Assembly: GCA_015665415.1 (NCBI GenBank)
Contig: JADFAE010000007.1
Location: forward strand, 62,001 to 126,000
Direction of reading: 5' to 3'
Source of the DNA: Roseobacter sp.
Lineage (GTDB): Bacteria; Pseudomonadota; Alphaproteobacteria; Rhodobacterales; Rhodobacteraceae
Length of the DNA: 64,000 nucleotides
Shown: piece by piece, positions 20,453 to 34,187 of the stretch
Layout: every line of letters begins with the position of its first letter
How positions within the stretch are numbered: the stretch's first letter is position 1
Made by a program: the position numbers and the translations under genes
The notes under the pieces: model-generated
What the model saw: only the letters and a program-made list of their open reading frames with translations
Database searches by the model: none
Told to the model about the DNA's origin: nothing

Positions 20453-22822
20453 ATGGGGGGCTTTGGCATCTCTTCCTTTCGTGGTCGCCTGCTCCTGGGC
20501 TTGCTGATTCCGGTCCTGGTGATCCAGGCGCTCAGCATTGCCCATGAGATGCTGGAGCACAAAGAGGTCTACCAGCAGGCCTTGCAGGAAGAATCCAACC
20601 TGGTGCTGCGTTTTGCCGGCGAGGCCCTGGCCCGACCGATGTGGGACTATGACTCGGATCAGATCCAAAGCATCCTCAAGGGCATCGTCAGCGAGGGCCG
20701 CACCGCCCAGGTGGGTATTTTCGACAGCGGTGATCGCCAAATCTACCTTGAACAGGCCCCCACCTACAGTCCGGCAGAGGGATACCTGCAGGCCAGCAAG
20801 GACATCCTCTACCAGGTTGGCGATCAACAGATGCCCCTGGGGCGGCTGGAAATCTCCCTGCCGGCCTCCAGCATTACCGAGCCTCTGCGCGCCGCGATGC
20901 AGCACCATCTCATGGTCTCTGGCTTCATGCTCTGCCTGATTGGCTGCGTGGCCTATCTGGTGCTGTCGCGCCTGGTGCAGCCGATGACAGCGCTGACCCG
21001 TGCCCTTGTCGACATCCGTCATGACCGCTTTGAAGGCGAGATCCCCGGTCTGGAGCGGCGCGATGAATTTGGCCTGATGGCCCAGGCCCTGAATCAGCTG
21101 CGCCAAAACAAGATCGAGGTCGCCGAACTGCGCGCCCAAAGCGATGAGAGCACCCGGCGCGAACACAAGCGGATCATGCGCGCTCTGCAATCCACCCGCG
21201 ACGGGGTGCTGCTGGCCGATGAGACCGGCAAGGTGGTGCTGTGCAACCCCAATGGCGAGGCCTTCTTTGGCGACACCCGCGCCGGGCAACAGCTGAACCT
21301 CTATTCCTGGCTGCCGCTTGATCAAGCCGAGCAGATCGAAAGCAATATCCAGCATCAGGAGAGCTTTGCCTTTGAGGCCTCCCCCCCGCAAGCCGCCAAC
21401 GGACAGGTGCTCAATCTTCTGGTGCGCGGCGGGCCGATCCGCGATGAGCAGGGACTTTATCTTGGCACCATGCTGCTGGCCTCGGATCACTCGGATCAGG
21501 CCCGCCAGGCCGAACGGGTGCGGTTTCTGGCCGAACATGACAGTCTGACCGGGCTACCCAACCGCCGCCTGATGGAACAGACCCTGGCCAAATGGCTGCA
21601 GGACGAGGGCGATCAGGTCTCTATCCTGCTCGCCGATCTCGACCATTTCAAATTGATCAATGACACCCTGGGCCATCCGGCGGGGGATGCGCTGTTGCAG
21701 GTGGTGGCACAGAAGTTCGAGGCCTGTGCCAGCACTCAGGTGCTGGCCGCACGCCTGGGCGGGGATGAATTCGCCATCCTGGTCAAAGGCGCCAGCAGCC
21801 TGGAGCGGCTGACCCATATCGCCAAACGCCTGGTCACCGAGATGGCGCTGCCCCAGCAGGTGAACGGCCAGGTGCTGCACACCGGCATGTCGGCCGGCAT
21901 CGCCACGCTCTCGGGCGTGCAGGCAGATCCCTCCGAAGGCATGCGACGCGCCGATCTGGCGCTCTATGAGGCCAAGCGGGCCGGGCGCGGCACCGTCGAG
22001 GTGTTCCACGCCGATCTGGAGACCGAAATCAAACGCAAGACCCTGCTGGAGCGCGAGTTGCGCCTGGCGCTCGAAGAGGGCGACATCCGGCCGGTGTTTC
22101 AGGTTCAGACCGATCTCGCCAGCGGCGACATCATCGGTTTCGAGTCCCTGGCGCGCTGGCATCACCGCCAGCTCGGCTCCATCTCGCCCGCCGAATTCAT
22201 CCCCATCGCCGAGGACAGTGGTCTCATTCGCGAGCTCACCCATCAGATCACGATCCGGGCCTTCTCCACCGCTGCCAAATGGTATGATCTGGGCTTTCGT
22301 GGTCGGGTGGCGGTCAATCTTTCGCCCAAGCTTTTTGGCGCAAACGTCGATGAATTTGTCAATGACTGCCTGTTTGAGACCAATTGCCCAGCCTCTGCGG
22401 TAGAGGCCGAAATTACCGAAACCGTGGTGCTGGCCAGCGGTCAATCCGCCCTGCGCGAAATCCAGGCGCTGCAGGAATTGGGCATCACCGTGGCGCTGGA
22501 TGATTTTGGCATGGGCTATTCCTCACTCAGCTATCTGCAGAAATTCCCGGTCGACAAGATCAAGGTCGATGCGGCCTTTGTCTCCAAACTGCCGGAATCG
22601 GCGGAAACCCGGGCCATTGTCAGCGCCATCGCCGAGCTGGGCCATGCGCTTGGCATGAAGGTGACCGGTGAAGGTGCCGAAACCGAAGACCATCGCCGCG
22701 AGCTGCAGGCCTGCGGGGTGGATTATCTGCAGGGCTATTTCGACGGCCCCCCCCTGGCCGAACGCGCCGCCACCCAGCGGCTGTTCCCGGCCGAGGACCA
22801 GCATCTGAAACTGCCGGGCTGA
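20453..22822 (+). CDS. Membrane GGDEF-EAL protein with periplasmic sensor, HAMP and PAS
   Basis: 789 residues. Helix 1 (~10-30), a periplasmic domain of ~125 residues, helix 2 (~155-175), HAMP (~178-225), PAS-like segment (~240-350), GGDEF (~365-530) and EAL (~545-780). The GGDEF signature RLGGDEF is intact, with DLDHFKLINDTLGH before it. The RxxD inhibitory site upstream is absent. The EAL domain has ESL for EAL and keeps EITETV, DDFGMGYSSL, KVD and GEGAET, so phosphodiesterase activity is plausible. It would make or break c-di-GMP in response to the binding protein encoded just upstream, and so set the attached versus motile state. A GC hairpin follows the stop. Confidence 0.93.
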   Translation: MGGFGISSFRGRLLLGLLIPVLVIQALSIAHEMLEHKEVYQQALQEESNLVLRFAGEALARPMWDYDSDQIQSILKGIVSEGRTAQVGIFDSGDRQIYLEQAPTYSPAEGYLQASKDILYQVGDQQMPLGRLEISLPASSITEPLRAAMQHHLMVSGFMLCLIGCVAYLVLSRLVQPMTALTRALVDIRHDRFEGEIPGLERRDEFGLMAQALNQLRQNKIEVAELRAQSDESTRREHKRIMRALQSTRDGVLLADETGKVVLCNPNGEAFFGDTRAGQQLNLYSWLPLDQAEQIESNIQHQESFAFEASPPQAANGQVLNLLVRGGPIRDEQGLYLGTMLLASDHSDQARQAERVRFLAEHDSLTGLPNRRLMEQTLAKWLQDEGDQVSILLADLDHFKLINDTLGHPAGDALLQVVAQKFEACASTQVLAARLGGDEFAILVKGASSLERLTHIAKRLVTEMALPQQVNGQVLHTGMSAGIATLSGVQADPSEGMRRADLALYEAKRAGRGTVEVFHADLETEIKRKTLLERELRLALEEGDIRPVFQVQTDLASGDIIGFESLARWHHRQLGSISPAEFIPIAEDSGLIRELTHQITIRAFSTAAKWYDLGFRGRVAVNLSPKLFGANVDEFVNDCLFETNCPASAVEAEITETVVLASGQSALREIQALQELGITVALDDFGMGYSSLSYLQKFPVDKIKVDAAFVSKLPESAETRAIVSAIAELGHALGMKVTGEGAETEDHRRELQACGVDYLQGYFDGPPLAERAATQRLFPAEDQHLKLPG

Positions 22823-22852: not shown

Positions 22853-23605
22853 TCAGGGGGATGGCGCAGCTGCTGCGGGGCTTTCAGACGGCGGCGGTGC
22901 AGCTGCACCGTCCCCCATGAAGAGTTTCTGCATGTCGACAAAGATGCCTGCCGCCAGCATGGCGCGCACCGGCACCCAGGGATCGGGATTGGCGGCAATC
23001 TCGTCATACAGCCCACGCGAGACCTGAAAATGGTTCAGCACCTCTTCGCTCTCGGAGCGCACCCAGACCAGATCCAACAGCGCCTCCTCGTCGCCGGCCT
23101 CACTCAGGCCCATCAGGCGCAGTTCCACCCCCTCGGCCAGAGGCGCCTCGGGCAGGCTGCGCAGCAGATCCAGCTTGGCCACTTCCCACAGCAGATCATC
23201 AAAGCCCAGCTCCGCCAGCACCAGCTTTTCACGTAGGGCAGGCCAGCCAAAGACCAGACGCCGGATCAAATCCTTGCCCACGCCCTGGGCCGCGCTGGGG
23301 GCCGCATCCCCATAGCTCAGATCAAAAATCGCCTGTTTCCCGGCGGCGATCTCCAGATGGTCGCGCAGGGCCTGGGCGGGCAAGGCGGCAATCCACTGAC
23401 CACGCCCGACATCAAGATAGTTGAAATCCGGCTCTAGGCGGAACTCATGGTCGCAGGCGCTGCAGGTGGCGGTCTGAAAGCTCTGCTCCAGGATCTCATC
23501 ACGCAGATCGGGGCGGCGGTCGGCGTTGACGCTGCCCACCGCCTCAAAGCTGAAAACCTCTGCACAGTTCGGGCAGGTCAGGTTCATTTCGACAAAAAGC
23601 GACAT
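22853..23605 (-). CDS. CpXC-domain protein
   Basis: 250 residues, starting 14 bases after the stop of the giant gene with a strong GGGGG-AT-GAGAGA leader. The N-terminal ~60 residues carry CPNC and CSAC (residues ~11-14 and ~48-51) in the CpXC pattern (PF14353), likely a zinc site. The rest is mainly helical and ends in a Pro/Ala/Ser-rich tail. The family has no established function. Tight coupling to the HExxH giant suggests a partner, for example an accessory or protective protein. That role is inference. Confidence 0.8.
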   Translation of the reverse strand: MSLFVEMNLTCPNCAEVFSFEAVGSVNADRRPDLRDEILEQSFQTATCSACDHEFRLEPDFNYLDVGRGQWIAALPAQALRDHLEIAAGKQAIFDLSYGDAAPSAAQGVGKDLIRRLVFGWPALREKLVLAELGFDDLLWEVAKLDLLRSLPEAPLAEGVELRLMGLSEAGDEEALLDLVWVRSESEEVLNHFQVSRGLYDEIAANPDPWVPVRAMLAAGIFVDMQKLFMGDGAAAPPPSESPAAAAPSP

Positions 23606-23619
23606 TCTCTCATCCCCCC

Positions 23620-26600
23620 TCAGGTCAGCTTTTTCAGCCAGTCAACGGCTGGGTGCTGATCTTTCAGTTTCTTGCTGTGATAGGCGGCATAGAGCTCCGA
23701 GAACCACTCACCCGGAGCGCGGAACTGATAGCCGGTGATCGCCTGTTTGCGCGCTGCAAAGGCATAGCTGTTCCAGGTGCCGCCCTTGTAGCTCTCATGG
23801 TAGACCCGACCGCCGATATTGAGCTTGGCGGCAATGATGGCGCTGGCCCAGGGGTTGTTGCCTGCCCGGGCCATATCCACATGGGCACAGCATTTGCTGC
23901 GCCGGCGCTCCCAGGTTTCCGGATCCACATCAGTGGGGCATTCCGGCAGTGCCAGATTCGCCGCACCACTCATATATTGCGCCACATAGGCAGCGTCATA
24001 TTGGTAGTGACCGGCAATGGCATCGGCCACCGGTTTGACGATCTGGCCATGTTCCTGCCAGCCCCCATGGGTCGCACTGCCCGCCACCCCCTTCATGAAA
24101 CTGCGCTGATCATCCACCGCATGGCCGGCCTCGTGCAGGGTGTTCCAGGAGAAGAAATCCACCTGCTCCTGATCCGCCGGTTTGCAATTGTCATCGACCT
24201 CACCGACCTCATGCGGACGACCAAACCCATAGACACCGCTGAGATGGGCATCGCCTTCGCGCATCACCACCGCCTTGGGCCCACCGGAATAGACGGAGCC
24301 CTTTTGCGTCTCCACATCCTCGTAGCCAAAGATCTTCATCGAGGTATTGTCGCGGGTGTCTTTTGGCGGCAGCACCGACATCACCTCATAGAAGCGCCGG
24401 ATATTGGGGCCCTTCTTGGCATCGGCAGTGCGCAGATTGCCCGCCGCATTGCGATCACGAGAGGCACCGGTGGAATCGGTGCCACTGGCATCGATATAGA
24501 TATTGAGCTTGCAGCCGAACTTGGCCTCAAAGGCCACCTTGAGCACCCGGCGCTGCGCCGAGGCATCCAGCCCCTTGATCATATCGTCGAGCTGTTTATC
24601 GCCATCAGGGCGGTCCAGGATCGCTTTGATGTTCTTGGGATCCGGCGCCACATTGCCGGCCATCTTGTCCTTGGCCACGGCATCCACCGCCTTGTCCTTG
24701 GCGGCTTTGACATGGGCCTCTGCCCCGTCGTGATCGCGTTTGGATGCGGCCTCGCGGGCCTGGAGGATCAGCCCGTCGAGCTGCTCCAGATCCTCGCGGA
24801 TGGCATAGCGCTGCTCGCTGCCCAAAAGCGTCTTGTGCTGCGCCTCAAGGGCATCGCAATCCGTGATCACCTGGTCATGGCGCGCGGCCATCCCCATCAG
24901 CGCGTGATGCTTGTCCATCACCGCCTCGATGGCGGCACTGGCCGCAGTCACATCACCACCAGAGCGGGCCGATTTGAGCGCCGTTGTGACCTCTGCCTTC
25001 AGCGCCTCGGCATCCTCCTGGATGATGCTATATTTGACAAAGGGCGCGGTCTTGGCGGTGATGCGGGAAATCACCCGGGTTGCCAGCTCATCCAGTTGCT
25101 TGTGATGGCTGATCTCCACCTGCAGGGCCTCGCAGGCCTTCAGCGCCGCCGGCAGCGCCGCTTTTGCCGCCTTAGGCTCTGTTTTCAGCTGTGCCTCGAT
25201 GGCATCGACCTGGTTTTCCGCCGCATCCAGCCCTTTGGCAAATTCCGCCTCACTCTCCCATTTGAGCGCATCAAAGACCGCGCGCAGCTGTTCCACGGCA
25301 GCGGTGATGGCCGCGGTATCGCTGTCCTCCATCCCCTCGAGATCGTCACCAATCCCGGCCAGGGCGGCGTTGTTCCTGGCCGCCACCAGCGCCGCGGCAC
25401 AATCCTGCGGCAACACATCCAGCAGCGCCTGGGCCTGGCCCATGCGCCCCTGGGTGGCCAGCTCCATCATATTGTCATATTTGCCCTCGATGCGGGCGAT
25501 CAGCGGCGCAATATATTTGGCCTGTTCGTGATCCTTGACCTCCTGGATCTTGACCACCGCCGCCTTGCAGGCCTCTTCAAAAATCTTGTGGCCCTTGCAA
25601 TCATCAATCACCGGAGCGCAGTCGGTGACCAGCTGATCCATCGCCGGGCTGGCCGTGGCAAAGGCGCGCTGCGGCACCGCCGTCGAGCCATGCTGATCGC
25701 TATAGGTCTTGCGCAGGGCGGCCACCCGGGCCCCCAGCCCGGCATGTTTCGCCAGTTTGGCATATTCCGCCTCCGCCTCCTTGACCTTGTTCTCTGCCGC
25801 CAGCCGCTTGGGCTCATAGGCGGTGCGGGCAGCCAACATGTCCTTGCCCCGGTCAATGGCCCAGGAATCGTCATTGACCACCTTGGCGGCGACCTTGAAG
25901 AGACGCTGCTGCAGCAGATCGGCAATTTTCACCTTGGCGGCGGCAATCTCGTCGCGCTCTTTCTGCACCAGCGGATCGGCAGCGATATTGACCTCATCAT
26001 CATAGATCCACTGCTGACGGCGCTTGATGGTGGTGACATAATCGACCCGCCCGGCCTCATAGGCCTGGGCCCGTTTCACATCCGCCTTCAGCTTGGCCAC
26101 CGCTGCCGCATGTTTGCCCGCCGCCCAGTCGGTATCAAACTGGGTACGAAAGCCAATGACCTTATCGACCTCGATCTGCAGGCTTTCCTTGGCGTCGATC
26201 GGATTGGTGAAGGTCAGCGCCTTGTCACGGCTACGGATCAGGCGTCGTTCAGGGGCGGCCAACAGCGCCTTGAGCGGCTTGGCCTCGGCAAAATGCGCCA
26301 GCTTCTTGCGCGCCGCCGCAACCTGGGTCTGGGCCTCATTGACTTTGGACAGGCCGGTGCCGAAATCCAGACCCGGTGCCTTGGCGGCATCATCTGCCGC
26401 CGTCAGCAGCGCATTGATCGCCACAAGCTCTGCCGCCAGGCAATTGTCATTATTGCTGCTGCCATCCTTCAACTCGGTCTCCACTGCAGGCCGTATGGCG
26501 GCCCGCTGACTGGTGAAACTGGCCTTGCAGGCCACCCGTTCCAGAATGCCCTCCAGCTGTTTGATCGCTTCGCCGAGATGGCTGCGCACCTTATCGAGAT

Positions 26601-29337
26601 CGGGGCTGGCCCCGGTGGAGGCATCGCGGCCCTTCTGCGCCTCGGCAGCGGCTGTGGTGCGCAGGGCGGCAAAAGAGCCGTCATCCTTGCCCTCGACATA
26701 TTTGGCCAGCTCTTCGTAGTTCTTGAAGGCCGCGACCACATCCTTGTCGACCGCCGCCAGCACATCATCCTTTTTCAGCTTGGCCAGCTCGGCGCGCATC
26801 TCGATGAGGTTTTTGGCCACATCCGCCGCGCCGTCGCCTGCGATGACGCTGTCGCGCGCGCTTTTGTAATCGCGCGCCGCCCCTTGGGTCGAGGCCTGGC
26901 GCAGATAGCTGTCACAAGAGGCCAGCTCATCCGTGGCGGCGGCGGCCTCCGGCAATTTGCGCAGATCAACCAGCCGGGCCTCCAGCGCGTCGCGCTTGGT
27001 CTTATAGGCGAGATAGTCATCAGCGCGGGTCTTATAGGCGGGCCAATCGCCCTGGCTGGCGCTCAGGATGCGGGTGGCGCTGTCGAATTTGCGCAGAATC
27101 GCATCCGAGGCGGCACTGGCGGATTCCGCCTCCATCCGGGTGATCACGTCATCAATGCCCGCCTTGCCGGCATGGGCCTTGAAGTCGTTGAGTTTGGCAT
27201 CAAACAGCGCCCGGATCTCGACATAGCCCTTGGCTTTGCGGCCCCGGTTGAGCAGATCCCAGGATTCGCGCTGCGCCAGGTCCAGTTTTTCCGCCGCCTT
27301 GAGCATATCGGGCTGCTTGGCCGGCTGGTTGGCATCCAGCGCCGCCTGACAGCGATCGATCCCCGCCTTGAGCAGGGCTTTGACATTGGCCGGAAAGCCG
27401 TTGAGCTCATTGAGATTGGCCTGCACCACCTTCAGCAGCCCGTCCTTTGCCACCCAATAGGTGGCACTGGGGTCGCCATCCAGCGCCAGGGCGCGGTGTT
27501 CCAGCACCTCCACATGCTGGTGCAGATCCGGCACCTTGTTCATCGCGGTGACTGCGGCCTCATAATCCTCAGCCGCCGCCTGGGTGACCCCGCCGTCATA
27601 GGCCGCAACCAGCGCCGCGATGGCCTTTTGGATCTGAGCCCGCGCCGGGGTGGCAGCGCGTTTGGGATCCACCAGGGTTTTGCGATCGGCCTGGATCTTG
27701 CGGTAATGGGCAAAATCATCCGCCAGCGCTTCCAGCATATCGCCGCGGGTCAGGAAAGAGACGATGCCACCGGACGCCTTCTGGAACTCGAATTTGGCCG
27801 CATCGGCCTCGGCGGCCACGATCTCGGCCTCCATCGCCGCCAGCTTGGCCTTGACCGGATCAACGCCTTTCAGCGCATGGGCCTTGATCGGCACCAGACG
27901 GGTGGCAAACAGCGGATGGGTCTGCTCCCAGGTCTGCTTGTCCTCAGTCAGCTGTTTCACCTTGGGCTCCAGATCCACCATCAGCTTGGTGGCAGCCGCC
28001 GCCGCCTGTTCCAGCTCTGCCACCTCTTTTTCGGGGGCGATCCCCAGATGGGTTGTGGCCTGCTGCACCGCCGTGGCCCAATCGCCCGGGGCAGGGGTGC
28101 CAAATGCGGCAATCAGCGCCTGAACCCGGGTCTTCACACCGCGCGCGGTCTCGAGTTTGGCCAGGGCCTGTTTCTTGGCCGGATCCTCGGTCTCGGCCTC
28201 AGGCTTGTCGGGCGTCTCGCTCTGTTTCTTGGGGGCTGCCGTTTCCGGTGCAGCCGCAGGCGATTTCTCTGTCTGCGGGGCTGTGTCAGACTGGGTTGTA
28301 TCAGACTGGGATGTGTCAGACGGGGCTGTGTCAGGCGGGGAGGCCGTCTCTGTTTCCGTCTCCTGCGCCGGGGCAGTGGCAGCGGCTTTGGCGGCCTCTA
28401 CCGCCGCCGCCAGCAGCGTCGACAGCGGACCGACCGATTTCAGCGCGGCGGCAAAATCACCCGCCCCGGCCTTGCCCTTGGCAAAATCCCAAACCGCCTG
28501 GATCTTGGCAATCTCACCATGGGTTCCGGCCAGAACCCGGCTCACATGGGGCTCCAGCTTGGCACAGGCCTCTTGCCAGCGGATCGCGCGCAGATCCTCC
28601 TGCGGCGGCGTCCCGTCATCATCCCCGGGTGTGGTCTTACCAGCGGCCTCCGTTGCCGCATCCGGCGGCGACTTGGCAGCCTGGGCCTTTTCAACCTGGG
28701 CCAGCGCCTTTTCCAGCTGGGTCAACAGCGCCTCGGCCTTGGGCAGCTCTCCCTTGGACACCAGTCCCGCCGCCCGTTTCAAGCCATCAACCAATTTGGC
28801 CTGGATCGCGCCTGTGAGCGGCGCAATTGCATCACGGCAGCGGGTCAGCCGCAGCTTCAGCGCGGCCGCCTCCTCTGAGGCGGCGCTGTCCGCCTGGGTC
28901 GCGGCGGCGCTGTCTTCGCTGTCTTGTGCCTGCCCCTGGGGGGCTGCGGCGGGGGCCTGCCCCGCCTCCTCCTGGTCCTCGGGGTCCTGTTGGAATTCGC
29001 TTTCTCCCGGCGCCAGCACCGCCAGTTTCATCTGGATGCCATTGCTGCGAAAGAAGATGCGGAAGTTTTTCAAAAGCCCGGCGGGTGGGTCGCTGAGACA
29101 AGAGAGTTTGAGCAGCTGGCCTTCCACCGCCAGGGTGCCATGGCAGGATTTCTGCGGCTGTACCCCGTCGGTTTTCTTGACCTGCAACAGCAATTTGTCG
29201 CTGCCGCGTTCCTTATGCATGATCAGGGCGCAATCTTCGGGTTTCTTGCCCAGAGCCAGCGCAAACTTGAGCTCCTTGTTGCGGGCCAGTTTGATCTTCT
29301 GTTTCAACTCTTTTACGGATTCTGCATCTAACGGCAC
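23620..29337 (-). CDS. Giant helical-repeat protein with C-terminal HExxH metallopeptidase-like domain
   Basis: 1905 residues from a GTG at 29337; further in-frame sequence to 29649 reads like intergenic DNA. There is no signal peptide. An N-terminal domain (~1-115) contains ELKFALALGKKPEDCALIMH. Then come a helical part (~115-330), a Pro/Thr/Ser linker (~330-380, SDT-rich), about 1150 residues of Ala/Lys/Asp-rich helices with apparent ~100-residue periodicity, and a C-terminal domain (~1560-1905). That domain has TLHEAGHAVDD (HExxH at 1735-1739) and GEWFSELYAAY near 1877, which could supply the third zinc ligand as in gluzincin-type toxin peptidases. Family not recognised as a whole. It could be a secreted effector or a cytosolic protease. 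Confidence 0.75.
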   Translation of the reverse strand: MPLDAESVKELKQKIKLARNKELKFALALGKKPEDCALIMHKERGSDKLLLQVKKTDGVQPQKSCHGTLAVEGQLLKLSCLSDPPAGLLKNFRIFFRSNGIQMKLAVLAPGESEFQQDPEDQEEAGQAPAAAPQGQAQDSEDSAAATQADSAASEEAAALKLRLTRCRDAIAPLTGAIQAKLVDGLKRAAGLVSKGELPKAEALLTQLEKALAQVEKAQAAKSPPDAATEAAGKTTPGDDDGTPPQEDLRAIRWQEACAKLEPHVSRVLAGTHGEIAKIQAVWDFAKGKAGAGDFAAALKSVGPLSTLLAAAVEAAKAAATAPAQETETETASPPDTAPSDTSQSDTTQSDTAPQTEKSPAAAPETAAPKKQSETPDKPEAETEDPAKKQALAKLETARGVKTRVQALIAAFGTPAPGDWATAVQQATTHLGIAPEKEVAELEQAAAAATKLMVDLEPKVKQLTEDKQTWEQTHPLFATRLVPIKAHALKGVDPVKAKLAAMEAEIVAAEADAAKFEFQKASGGIVSFLTRGDMLEALADDFAHYRKIQADRKTLVDPKRAATPARAQIQKAIAALVAAYDGGVTQAAAEDYEAAVTAMNKVPDLHQHVEVLEHRALALDGDPSATYWVAKDGLLKVVQANLNELNGFPANVKALLKAGIDRCQAALDANQPAKQPDMLKAAEKLDLAQRESWDLLNRGRKAKGYVEIRALFDAKLNDFKAHAGKAGIDDVITRMEAESASAASDAILRKFDSATRILSASQGDWPAYKTRADDYLAYKTKRDALEARLVDLRKLPEAAAATDELASCDSYLRQASTQGAARDYKSARDSVIAGDGAADVAKNLIEMRAELAKLKKDDVLAAVDKDVVAAFKNYEELAKYVEGKDDGSFAALRTTAAAEAQKGRDASTGASPDLDKVRSHLGEAIKQLEGILERVACKASFTSQRAAIRPAVETELKDGSSNNDNCLAAELVAINALLTAADDAAKAPGLDFGTGLSKVNEAQTQVAAARKKLAHFAEAKPLKALLAAPERRLIRSRDKALTFTNPIDAKESLQIEVDKVIGFRTQFDTDWAAGKHAAAVAKLKADVKRAQAYEAGRVDYVTTIKRRQQWIYDDEVNIAADPLVQKERDEIAAAKVKIADLLQQRLFKVAAKVVNDDSWAIDRGKDMLAARTAYEPKRLAAENKVKEAEAEYAKLAKHAGLGARVAALRKTYSDQHGSTAVPQRAFATASPAMDQLVTDCAPVIDDCKGHKIFEEACKAAVVKIQEVKDHEQAKYIAPLIARIEGKYDNMMELATQGRMGQAQALLDVLPQDCAAALVAARNNAALAGIGDDLEGMEDSDTAAITAAVEQLRAVFDALKWESEAEFAKGLDAAENQVDAIEAQLKTEPKAAKAALPAALKACEALQVEISHHKQLDELATRVISRITAKTAPFVKYSIIQEDAEALKAEVTTALKSARSGGDVTAASAAIEAVMDKHHALMGMAARHDQVITDCDALEAQHKTLLGSEQRYAIREDLEQLDGLILQAREAASKRDHDGAEAHVKAAKDKAVDAVAKDKMAGNVAPDPKNIKAILDRPDGDKQLDDMIKGLDASAQRRVLKVAFEAKFGCKLNIYIDASGTDSTGASRDRNAAGNLRTADAKKGPNIRRFYEVMSVLPPKDTRDNTSMKIFGYEDVETQKGSVYSGGPKAVVMREGDAHLSGVYGFGRPHEVGEVDDNCKPADQEQVDFFSWNTLHEAGHAVDDQRSFMKGVAGSATHGGWQEHGQIVKPVADAIAGHYQYDAAYVAQYMSGAANLALPECPTDVDPETWERRRSKCCAHVDMARAGNNPWASAIIAAKLNIGGRVYHESYKGGTWNSYAFAARKQAITGYQFRAPGEWFSELYAAYHSKKLKDQHPAVDWLKKLT

Positions 29338-30997: not shown

Positions 30998-33784
30998 TCA
31001 ACTGGCCTGGCGCGGGGCCTCCTGATCCCAGCCACTGTCCTGATCCCAGCCACTGTCCGGATCACTGCCCAGATCACGGCCCCAGCCCATGTCCAGATCA
31101 GCCTCCTGATCGCGGCCCTGATCCTGGCTGCGGTCAAAGGCCTGCCCATCCGCAACCGCCGCGGTGCGAAAGCCGCCAAGCGCGGCATCCATCGCCTGGG
31201 CCTCCTGCGACAATCCGATGCTGGAGGAGGTCACCTCCTCGAAGAGGGCGGCATTCTTGGCGGTGGAATCATCCAGATGCCCCATCGCCTTGTTGATCTC
31301 CTGCAGGCTGCCCGATTGCTCCGAAGAGGCCTCGGAAATCTCCTGCATCAGGCTGGCGGCACTGCTCACAGAGCCCGAAATCTCGCCGATCACCTCGCCG
31401 GTGCGCGCCACCAGATCGGCCCCCAGCTCGATGTTCTGCCCGCTTTCGGCCACCAGGGTGGAAATCTCGGTGGCGGCTTCCTTGGAGCGATGCGCCAGGG
31501 TGCGCACCTCCGAGGCCACCACCGCAAAGCCCTTGCCGACATCGCCGGCCCGGGCCGCTTCGACCCCAGCGTTCAGCGCCAGCAGATTGGTCTGCTGGGC
31601 AATGCTTTCGATCATGCCGATGATCTGGGAAATCTTGTATGAGCTTTCCTTGATCCCCTCCATGGCGACATGGGTGCGCTGCACCACATCCAGGCTTTCT
31701 TCGGCGTTCTGACGCGCCACCTCCACCGAGGTCGAGGCCTCTCCCGAGGCCTTGGCGGTATGGGTGATCGAGACCGAGAGCTGGTTCACCGCGGCGGCGG
31801 TACTGGCCAGGGTCTGGGCGGTGCGTTCAGAACGTTCCGACAGATCGCGCGAGGCGGCGGAGATTTCCGAGGTGCCGCCGGCGATGGAGCGCCCATTGAG
31901 GCTGAGGCTGCTGACCGATTGCTCGAGCCCGTCCAACGCGGCGTTGAAATCATCCCGCAGCTTGGCGTAGCCCGCGCTCATCGGGGTGTCGATGCGGGTG
32001 GTCAGATCGCCCTGTGACAGCTGCGCCAGGCCTTCGCCAATGGCGGTCACGGCGGCGGTCTGATCGGCCTGGCGTCTTTCCCGCTCTGTGGCGGCGGCTT
32101 TTTCGTTGTCCGCCTTTTCCACCAGCCCATCGCGGAACACCGACAGGGCGCGGGCAATGCGATAGATCTCATCGCTGGCGCGCTCAAAGCCACTGACCGG
32201 GCTCATGTCGCCTGCGGCCAGATGTTCGGTGGTTTCGCTGATCCGGGCCAGCGGTCGGGTGATCAGGATCCGGGTCAGCACCAGGGCCAGTATCAGCACC
32301 CCGCCCGAGACCAGCATCAACAGTTGCATGCGCTGCTCGGCGAGGCCCATTTCGGCGGTGATACTGGTGGCCATCTGCGCGATCTCTGTCTGGCTGTCGG
32401 CCCCCAGATCGGCGGCATGCTCGGCAATGCTCAGCACCACCTCGGCGGTTTCCTGCGAGGCCAGCGCCGCAACCGCCGTGGCCTCCAGCTCCGCCACTTT
32501 GAAAATCGCCAATCCCTGGGCCGGATCCGCCATCGCGATCAGCCCTTCGAATTCGGTCTTCAGGCGGCCGCCGTCAAAGCGGACATAGCCCTGCAGCACC
32601 TGAGCGGCCTCGGCCAGCGGCGCGGCGGCCACACGGGTGGTCTGGACATCCCCGGATGCGGCCACATCCAAGGCCGCCAGCTGAAAGGCACTGATCACAC
32701 CATTGATCTCCAGCAGCCGGTGCAACATGCCAACCTGATTGTCCAACAGCCCCTGAATCGCCGTCTTGTTGTTGTCACTGGCCTGGCTGGCCGCCACCGA
32801 GAGGGTAAAGACCATCTTGTCCAGCGCCCGCGACAGCGGCGCAGAGCTGCTCTGGCGTGCCTTCATCACGATCTTGCGGTTTTCCTTTTGATCCTTGCGG
32901 CTGGCGCTCAGGGTCTCCTTGAAGACCTCGATACCGGCCCGCACCCGTTTGGCACCAAAGGCGTCCAGCCCGATCTCTTCCAGCTGCGCCAGCACCGGCT
33001 CCAGCCGGGCGACGGCATCGCGGGCCATGACCTCCAGCGCCTTGCGGGTCTGCACATCGCGGACATGACCCAGGGCCAGCGCCGCACCGGACAAGACATT
33101 GATGTCGCCGCGCGCCTCCAGCAGGGTCTGCAGGCCGCCAAACTGTTTTTCCACCAGATTGCTCAGCACCGTATCCACCTCGGCGATGGTCTCGCCACCC
33201 CCCGTCATCAGATTGGTATGGGCCTCATCCGCAATCTGCACCAACTTGCCCTGCAAATCAGCGCTGAGATTTTGCAGCTCGGCGCTTTGGGTCTCAACCC
33301 AGGCCTGGTTGCGAAACGCGCTCTGGCGGGCCGCAACCAGCGCCTGGAGGGTCGCGCCCACCTCTGCCGCCTCACTCTCAAAGCTTGTGCGCCGCGCCGC
33401 GGGCAGGGCGGCGACGCTCTGGTTCAACAGCTCCGTGGCATGGGTGATCTGCGCCTCGGCCTCGGTCAACTGGCTCTCGTCCTGGGCCAGCAACACCGCG
33501 GTCATGGCATTTTTGATCTCAGAGGCCGCGCCCCCCAGCGCATTGCTCATTTCCAGCTGCGGCAGCTTGTGTTCCGACAGGTCCTGCATGCGGCTGCCAA
33601 CACTGCCAAAGACCAGCGAGACCAGCACGCCACCTGCAACCGAAGCCGCGCCCATGGCCAGCAGGATCAGGGTGATCTTTGCGCCGATACTGGAAAAGGG
33701 TCGCCATCTGCGCTTGCCCGCGCCTGCATCTCCCGCTCCCAATTGACCTGCCTCTGCGGTGTCTGCTGCCTTATCTGCCGTCAT
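30998..33784 (-). CDS. Methyl-accepting chemotaxis protein
   Basis: 928 residues from the ATG at 33784 (GGGTGAT before it; a TTG twelve bases further up is less likely). Helix 1 (~35-60), an unusually long periplasmic region of ~430 residues that is mostly helical, helix 2 (~488-510), two HAMP units ([17 protein letters not shown] and [14 protein letters not shown]), then the signalling domain with the hairpin tip [37 protein letters not shown]. The C-terminal ~45 residues are an Asp/Gly/Trp/Gln-rich tail with a perfect 18-bp tandem DNA duplication at 31021-31056 ([12 protein letters not shown]). No other chemotaxis gene is near, so it would use the chromosomal Che system. Confidence 0.93.
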
Positions 33785-34187
33785 GATATCACCCAAGAAT
33801 TCGCATTTTTCCGGTCCAATTTCACCTGACCAAATATCGCAAAGACGGATCGCGGCTGGGCGCTACATATGTCGTCGCGCCAAGGCACTGTCCGGGCAAA
33901 GAGAGTCAGACCTGGCCCCTAGGCAGGCCACAAGAGAGTAAAAATACCATGAGTAACGCATAAGGAGTCCGGCAAATTTTAGCTAATTCCGCCCTCATTC
34001 AGGGCTGTTCCCCCCATAGGCCGGGCCCGCTCTGGGGCTCTTTACGGCCCTTTCCAAAACCTGTTCCGCCCGCTTGCACAGAGTAGAAATGGTTTGATGT
34101 CACCCCTTCTCTATTGGATAGAGGACCCGTTTATTCGACAGTGCGACATGTCATTTGTTGAAGTCAAAACAGGACGGCAGCCCCAAA
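33785..34187. other. Intergenic region at the edge of the low-GC patch
   Basis: 403 bases. No convincing gene. The composition becomes less G+C-rich here. It contains the chemoreceptor promoter side and the leader of the dead sulfotransferase-like gene. Confidence 0.4.

Follow-up and report, generated by a model that had tools for sequence, protein, structure and literature searches.

Marker domains such as MIX, FIX and the PAAR classes identify cargo effectors of the type VI secretion system (T6SS). For the proteins described below the closest precedent in logic is RIX, which, in the available text of PMC10435454, marks T6SS effectors and secreted adaptors of the Vibrionaceae: a short, arginine-rich N-terminal domain (residues 1-55 of Tme1) followed by polymorphic C-termini, found only in Vibrionaceae and Moritellaceae and outside T6SS clusters, in genomes nearly all of which have a T6SS, and used also in three-gene operons of a tagged adaptor, a cargo effector and an immunity gene. 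WHIX, in the accessible part of PMC12135965, is a bipartite domain whose fusion partners are mostly peptidoglycan-targeting. For the roseobacters, the portion of a 2022 paper available here (PMC9515649) presents a T6SS machine with TssCL and states that T6SS functions in reference roseobacter genomes are undescribed; of the 39 hits that its effector search gave in one Leisingera genome, several are to parts of the machine or to proteins of a housekeeping type. Here we analyse a two-gene locus in a 64,000-nucleotide stretch of a Roseobacter sp. genome (the window, G000:C2:62001-126000, where G000 denotes the genome itself). It encodes a protein of 1905 residues, hereafter the giant, and a CpXC-domain protein. 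We consider the two proteins likely to be an effector of the T6SS and the cognate immunity protein.

The initial annotation, made from the sequence of the window, had described these genes as a unit of an HExxH protein and a CpXC protein. This was confirmed by the reading frame of the giant, by a match of the smaller protein to PF14353 (E 1.4e-20, 73.9 bits, cut-off 25.4) and by the spacing of the two genes, which lie on the minus strand with 14 bases between them. The giant is present in single copy in its genome. It has no Pfam match above cut-off, no NCBIfam match and, judged by eye alone, no signal peptide; a PHROG of unknown function matches its residues 1157-1202 (E 8.6e-5). It begins with a domain for which we coined the label ND and ends with a metallopeptidase-like domain, the C-domain. 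The zone between them had been called Ala/Lys-rich, about 1150 residues long. The composition stands (20.8% Ala and 8.6% Lys over residues 246-1560) but the length does not, being about 1300 residues. Degenerate internal repeats give self-matches to E 2e-8 with ortholog profiles, a value that the Ala-rich composition may inflate. Since relatives of the giant within the genus are 64-72% identical over the main aligned segments, a chance reading frame was ruled out; two of these relatives (72%) align end to end. A long plus-strand frame overlapping the giant gene is presumably the antisense mirror of the conserved giant.

An N-terminal tag had also been proposed for the giant, and ND proved to be a module that many otherwise different proteins share. 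With a profile built from 13 ND sequences, 75 matches were listed, spread over 28 of 295 genomes of the family, with up to 14 per genome; the profile at class level matched two of 385 genomes, namely that of the giant and G344, which contains TssC. ND occurs on proteins with differing C-termini, as detailed below, and is strongly associated with the T6SS. TssK was found in 72 of the 295 family genomes: in 27 of the 28 with ND (all but G062) and in 45 of the 267 that have no ND (Fisher p = 8.5e-18, with relatedness uncorrected and on the assumption that the two draws of 295 genomes coincide, as the handles in their lists indicate). When TssK-positive genomes were divided at 490 bits, a threshold chosen post hoc, ND was carried by 27 of the 40 scoring at least that much and by none of the 32 below. 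An ND match lies less than 40 kb from tssK in 14 of the 28 genomes, and ND adjoins a tssA homologue in 13 of 69 mapped loci (the gene caller for the operon maps, a home-made GC-position script, missed the ND open reading frame (ORF) in six of the 75 loci). Behind tssA-adjacent ND genes there are often genes for a small protein, an ExbB homologue and ExbD-like proteins. At L039:12965-16006, the gene for an ND protein precedes those for a small protein, a member of the MotA/ExbB family (Pfam MotA_ExbB) and two ExbD-like proteins named by eye; this type of arrangement is divergent from tssA and recurs in many T6SS clusters. In G016, G079, G228, G266 and G279, C-domain genes and T6SS genes share a contig and are no more than about 30 kb apart.

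The layout of the giant had been likened in the initial annotation to that of a delivered effector, with no T6SS seen in the window, a negative for which no gene-wise search was made here. This likeness gained evidence from the rest of the genome, where a T6SS cluster lies on contig C18 with an ND protein beside tssA. TssK (PF05936) and TssC/VipB were found in that genome, and Pfam matches assign to the cluster ImpA_N (TssA), VipA (TssB), Hcp, ImpE, gp25 (TssE), IcmF (TssM), a ClpB/ClpV-type ATPase and a VgrG-type hub. One 1274-residue protein (L029:10931-14755, on G000:C18) holds both VipA and VipB domains and is the counterpart of TssCL, the TssB-TssC fusion that the cluster shares with the roseobacter T6SS as described in the available text of PMC9515649. 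All 10 TssC-positive genomes of the genus have such a second VipB match, weaker than the first. ND was found confidently twice in the genome, in the giant and at G000:C18:35499-35786, and a third match is weak (E 0.04); the C18 protein is encoded divergently from tssA, with tssK about 22 kb away. The AlphaFold model of ND (6 sequences) was too poor for use (pLDDT 51.3), and a Pfam scan of the 13 ND sequences returned no T6SS family, with no check made that Pfam has models for the WHIX, MIX, FIX and PAAR classes. Comparison of ND with PDB sequences gave 24 matches, all to ribosomal eL22 (best E 0.016), and a RapZ C-terminal match was obtained for 1 of the 13 members (E 5.6e-4); both were treated as unproven leads.

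We then grouped 81 ND ORFs, taken from those of the 75 loci that are longer than 9 kb, by their C-termini. The largest group has 41 members, 12 ORFs share the C-domain of the giant, five share an unknown end, four are shorter, two groups have three members each and 13 are singletons. One group of three includes L035, whose C-terminus is a MafB19-like deaminase (E 1.6e-9; the scan covered L035 and not L113 or L115). Other ND proteins stand alone in front of a separate gene: among separate ND proteins shorter than 800 residues, 24 of 58 are followed by a partner that reaches 400 residues or more, some of these being unrelated genes. At L107 a double-ND protein is followed by a protein with a CdiA_C toxin end (E 4.8e-9). 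At L036:10590-13979 (G001), the gene after a double-ND protein encodes DUF4781 (E 6.4e-17). ND proteins at L116, L122, L123, L133 and L134 have in common the unknown C-terminal domain and each precedes a gene that encodes about 144-153 residues; we regard these ends and the genes behind them as candidate toxin and immunity families. The group of 41, with proteins of at most 761 residues and no recognised toxin, together with the ND protein that sits within the T6SS cluster beside tssA, could also be read to mean that the giant is a loading or scaffold component whose peptidase processes T6SS parts inside the producer, with no toxin delivered at all. We find this improbable, given the patchy distribution of the C-domain (11 of 295 genomes), the toxin domains on one ND protein and on one ND-associated protein, and the presence of the two genes as a cassette on three plasmids of Leisingera, where the annotated features viewed, from an incomplete gene table, include no T6SS gene.

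The profile of the C-domain gave 13 loci in 11 of the 295 family genomes, and all 11 are among the 28 genomes with ND. In an alignment of 22 proteins, which includes the giant and is not a set of independent sequences (L002 and L003 hardly differ), 21 have an intact HExxH. The segment (E/D)WF(S/A)EL occurs in all 22, as EWFSEL in 18, EWFAEL in three and DWFAEL in one, and its second Glu is invariant; the two Glu of the giant are E1877 and E1881. One of these may provide the third zinc ligand. As the model of the C-domain is of low confidence, it is conservation from which this assignment is drawn. M34-like zincins have a Glu-containing segment after HExxH. The C-domain resembles them in having HExxH followed by AVDD and, later, such a segment. 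The family ATLF (anthrax lethal factor domain, PF07737), M34 in MEROPS, matched two members below threshold, L126 and L111, with the match starting one residue ahead of HExxH. Motif conservation and these two sub-threshold matches make the C-domain a putative zincin; on this comparison of motifs, it differs from M34-like zincins in that its ATLF score is far below cut-off and no zincin fold was obtained for it. A phylum-wide search with the C-domain found only the genome of the giant among 398; as the 21 genomes listed are from a single family and the remaining 377 are not listed, this result is of little weight for other groups.

The CpXC protein had been suggested as a possible partner of the giant, and the pairing turned out to be one-to-one. 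All 13 C-domain loci (295 genomes) have a CpXC neighbour and all 13 CpXC loci, found with a subfamily profile in 11 of 248 genomes, have a C-domain neighbour; the co-occurrence of the two genes thus extends to other genomes. The CpXC gene also adjoins the C-domain gene in 22 of 22 aligned cases, and four Cys are invariant in the 14 CpXC members aligned. CpXC gave no match to PDB sequences up to E 1. A four-cysteine, zinc-ribbon-like protein, whose relatives were found in these surveys only beside the metallopeptidase domain, might instead be a zinc-handling maturation factor or chaperone, folding or loading the metallopeptidase of a T6SS effector before its export. We regard this as unlikely. 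The small downstream partner genes of other ND proteins are unrelated to CpXC and mostly group by the C-terminus of their own ND protein, as expected of immunity genes: linked partners were found for four of five members of one C-terminal cluster (not L134) and two of three in the deaminase group (not L035), and L103 is missing from the CpXC partner grouping, although a CpXC gene was found there in another analysis. Furthermore, the CpXC gene is kept at L105, where HExxH is degenerate.

In the reading that we favour, that of an effector and its immunity protein, the two genes would be co-transcribed, ND would be a loading and secretion tag for the roseobacter-type T6SS, acting either in cis or in trans, and the long repeat region rich in Ala would travel with it as a passenger stalk, though it may instead be a spacer or belong to the toxin. 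After secretion, the C-terminal domain would act as a zinc metallopeptidase in the recipient cell, its proteolysis being the presumed source of toxicity, and the CpXC protein would bind the peptidase and give immunity to the producer and its kin. A more specific proposal, in which we place about as much trust as doubt, is that ND is an undescribed, Rhodobacterales-centred T6SS secretion domain that works in cis when it is fused to giant toxins and also in trans when it is carried by an adaptor encoded ahead of effectors that have no tag. In this proposal the ND protein of the T6SS cluster, next to tssA, would be a docking partner, the giant would be a metallopeptidase effector of the ND class and the CpXC family would provide its immunity protein. 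Compared by description, and within the available text on RIX, ND is like RIX in being an N-terminal domain with polymorphic C-termini, in its T6SS-carrying genomes and in three-gene operons with a tagged adaptor. It is unlike RIX in its size of about 100 residues, its centre in Rhodobacteraceae/Roseobacteraceae and the presence of one copy inside a T6SS cluster. WHIX, as far as the accessible part of its report goes, is likewise a marker domain for T6SS cargo effectors and differs in being bipartite. The speculation, in the available text of PMC10435454, that other families may have T6SS secretion domains of their own fits ND, which would offer a sequence handle on candidate roseobacter T6SS cargo. 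The pairing offers a testable role for CpXC proteins and, if the role is true, gives the CpXC family a function. The available text of PMC9515649 mentions no ND or CpXC effector, and no description of ND or of an immunity role for CpXC was found in the literature searched, which comprised few subscription papers and no bioRxiv preprints.

Several results weigh against this interpretation. Firstly, no zincin fold was obtained: the AlphaFold model of the C-domain (7 sequences) has a pLDDT of 54.5, a Foldseek search with it gave 29 matches of which none reached E <= 0.001, and the profile of the domain found among PDB sequences only matches at E 0.085 and 1.8. ATLF matched only 2 of 15 members, at 11.2 and 11.3 bits for a cut-off of 27.4. 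The degenerate HExxH at L105 belongs here too, as the CpXC gene is retained next to a C-domain that looks inactive. This protein (L105:5460-8405, G279) has ND and the C-domain and keeps DWFAEL, and a second copy in G279 (L082) has HExxH. Secondly, recognised toxins are rare: among nine non-metallopeptidase ND C-termini scanned, L035 alone passed the Pfam cut-off, and a toxin family was matched in one (L107) of 38 scanned partner C-termini (out of 43), several of which belong to unrelated housekeeping genes. Thirdly, 7 of the 22 C-domain proteins are without ND, 14 having it and L021 being cut by a contig end. Six of the seven (L151, L153, L154, L155, L156 and L157) begin with N2, a different element some 75 residues long, and the seventh, L160, lies in an operon of ND (510 aa), C-domain (1079 aa) and CpXC (239 aa). 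N2 is also present on some genes behind ND proteins (L079, L093). Finally, the giant and the T6SS of its genome are on different contigs, G062 carries the giant with no TssK and no TssC match, and G008 carries it with no TssC match (TssK was not searched there). The persistence of the pair in G008 and G062, and its form as a cassette of a protease-like domain with a zinc-ribbon-like partner, would also suit a protease-based anti-phage defence pair unrelated to the T6SS. PADLOC anti-phage models did not match the giant and reached no better than E 0.078 with CpXC, and on this result a stand-alone defence system was set aside as less likely; with ND tied to T6SS genomes and clusters as well, it seems very improbable.

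Relatives of the giant were sought in 60 related genomes, of which 12 gave a match, the genome itself and ND-only matches counted. Within the genus the giant is present in its own genome and seven others, three further genomes have ND matches only and G009 has none. In G004 it is split over two contigs, with an internal stop in one piece and identities of 83% and 68%. Named genome records with the C-domain are three of Pseudophaeobacter, Phaeobacter sp. 11ANDIMAR09, Roseobacter sp. SK209-2-6 and Zongyanglinia marina. The pair is carried by four plasmids, three from Leisingera and one from Phaeobacter sp. G2, where it is annotated as a hypothetical protein and a CpXC domain-containing protein; profiles confirmed ND, C-domain and CpXC on all four. 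As the Leisingera copies sit amid unrelated annotated genes, the two genes behave as a cassette. The C-domain proteins at L105 and L106, with just 967 and 1108 residues, show that the arrangement can do without the long repeat region.

Table 1. Coordinates in the window of the two genes and of the parts of the giant protein.
Feature	Position	Strand	Basis or remark
Giant protein gene, 1905 aa, GTG start	23620..29337	-	ND, linker, Ala-rich repeat region and HExxH C-terminal domain
ND, N-terminal domain of about 100 residues, residues 10-108	29014..29310	-	profile match
Ala/Gln-rich linker, residues 111-245	28603..29007	-	composition computed for residues 116-245
Ala-rich, presumably helical region with degenerate internal repeats, residues 246-1560	24658..28602	-	composition and repeat search; helicity inferred
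C-terminal metallopeptidase-like domain (C-domain), residues 1561-1905	23623..24657	-	alignment of 22 members
HExxH motif, residues 1735-1739, then AVDD	24121..24135	-	kept in 21/22
EWFSE, residues 1877-1881, candidate third zinc ligand segment	23695..23709	-	conservation; ligand role inferred
CpXC-domain protein, 250 aa, candidate cognate immunity protein	22853..23605	-	PF14353

In the window, the pair is flanked by a GGDEF/EAL-type gene (20453-22822) and a chemotaxis-receptor-type gene (30998-33796), both named by eye. The 131 kb plasmid of Phaeobacter sp. G2 (L164) has annotated flanks of the same kinds, GGDEF/EAL and chemotaxis receptor. On account of this similarity, the contig that carries the giant may be extrachromosomal.

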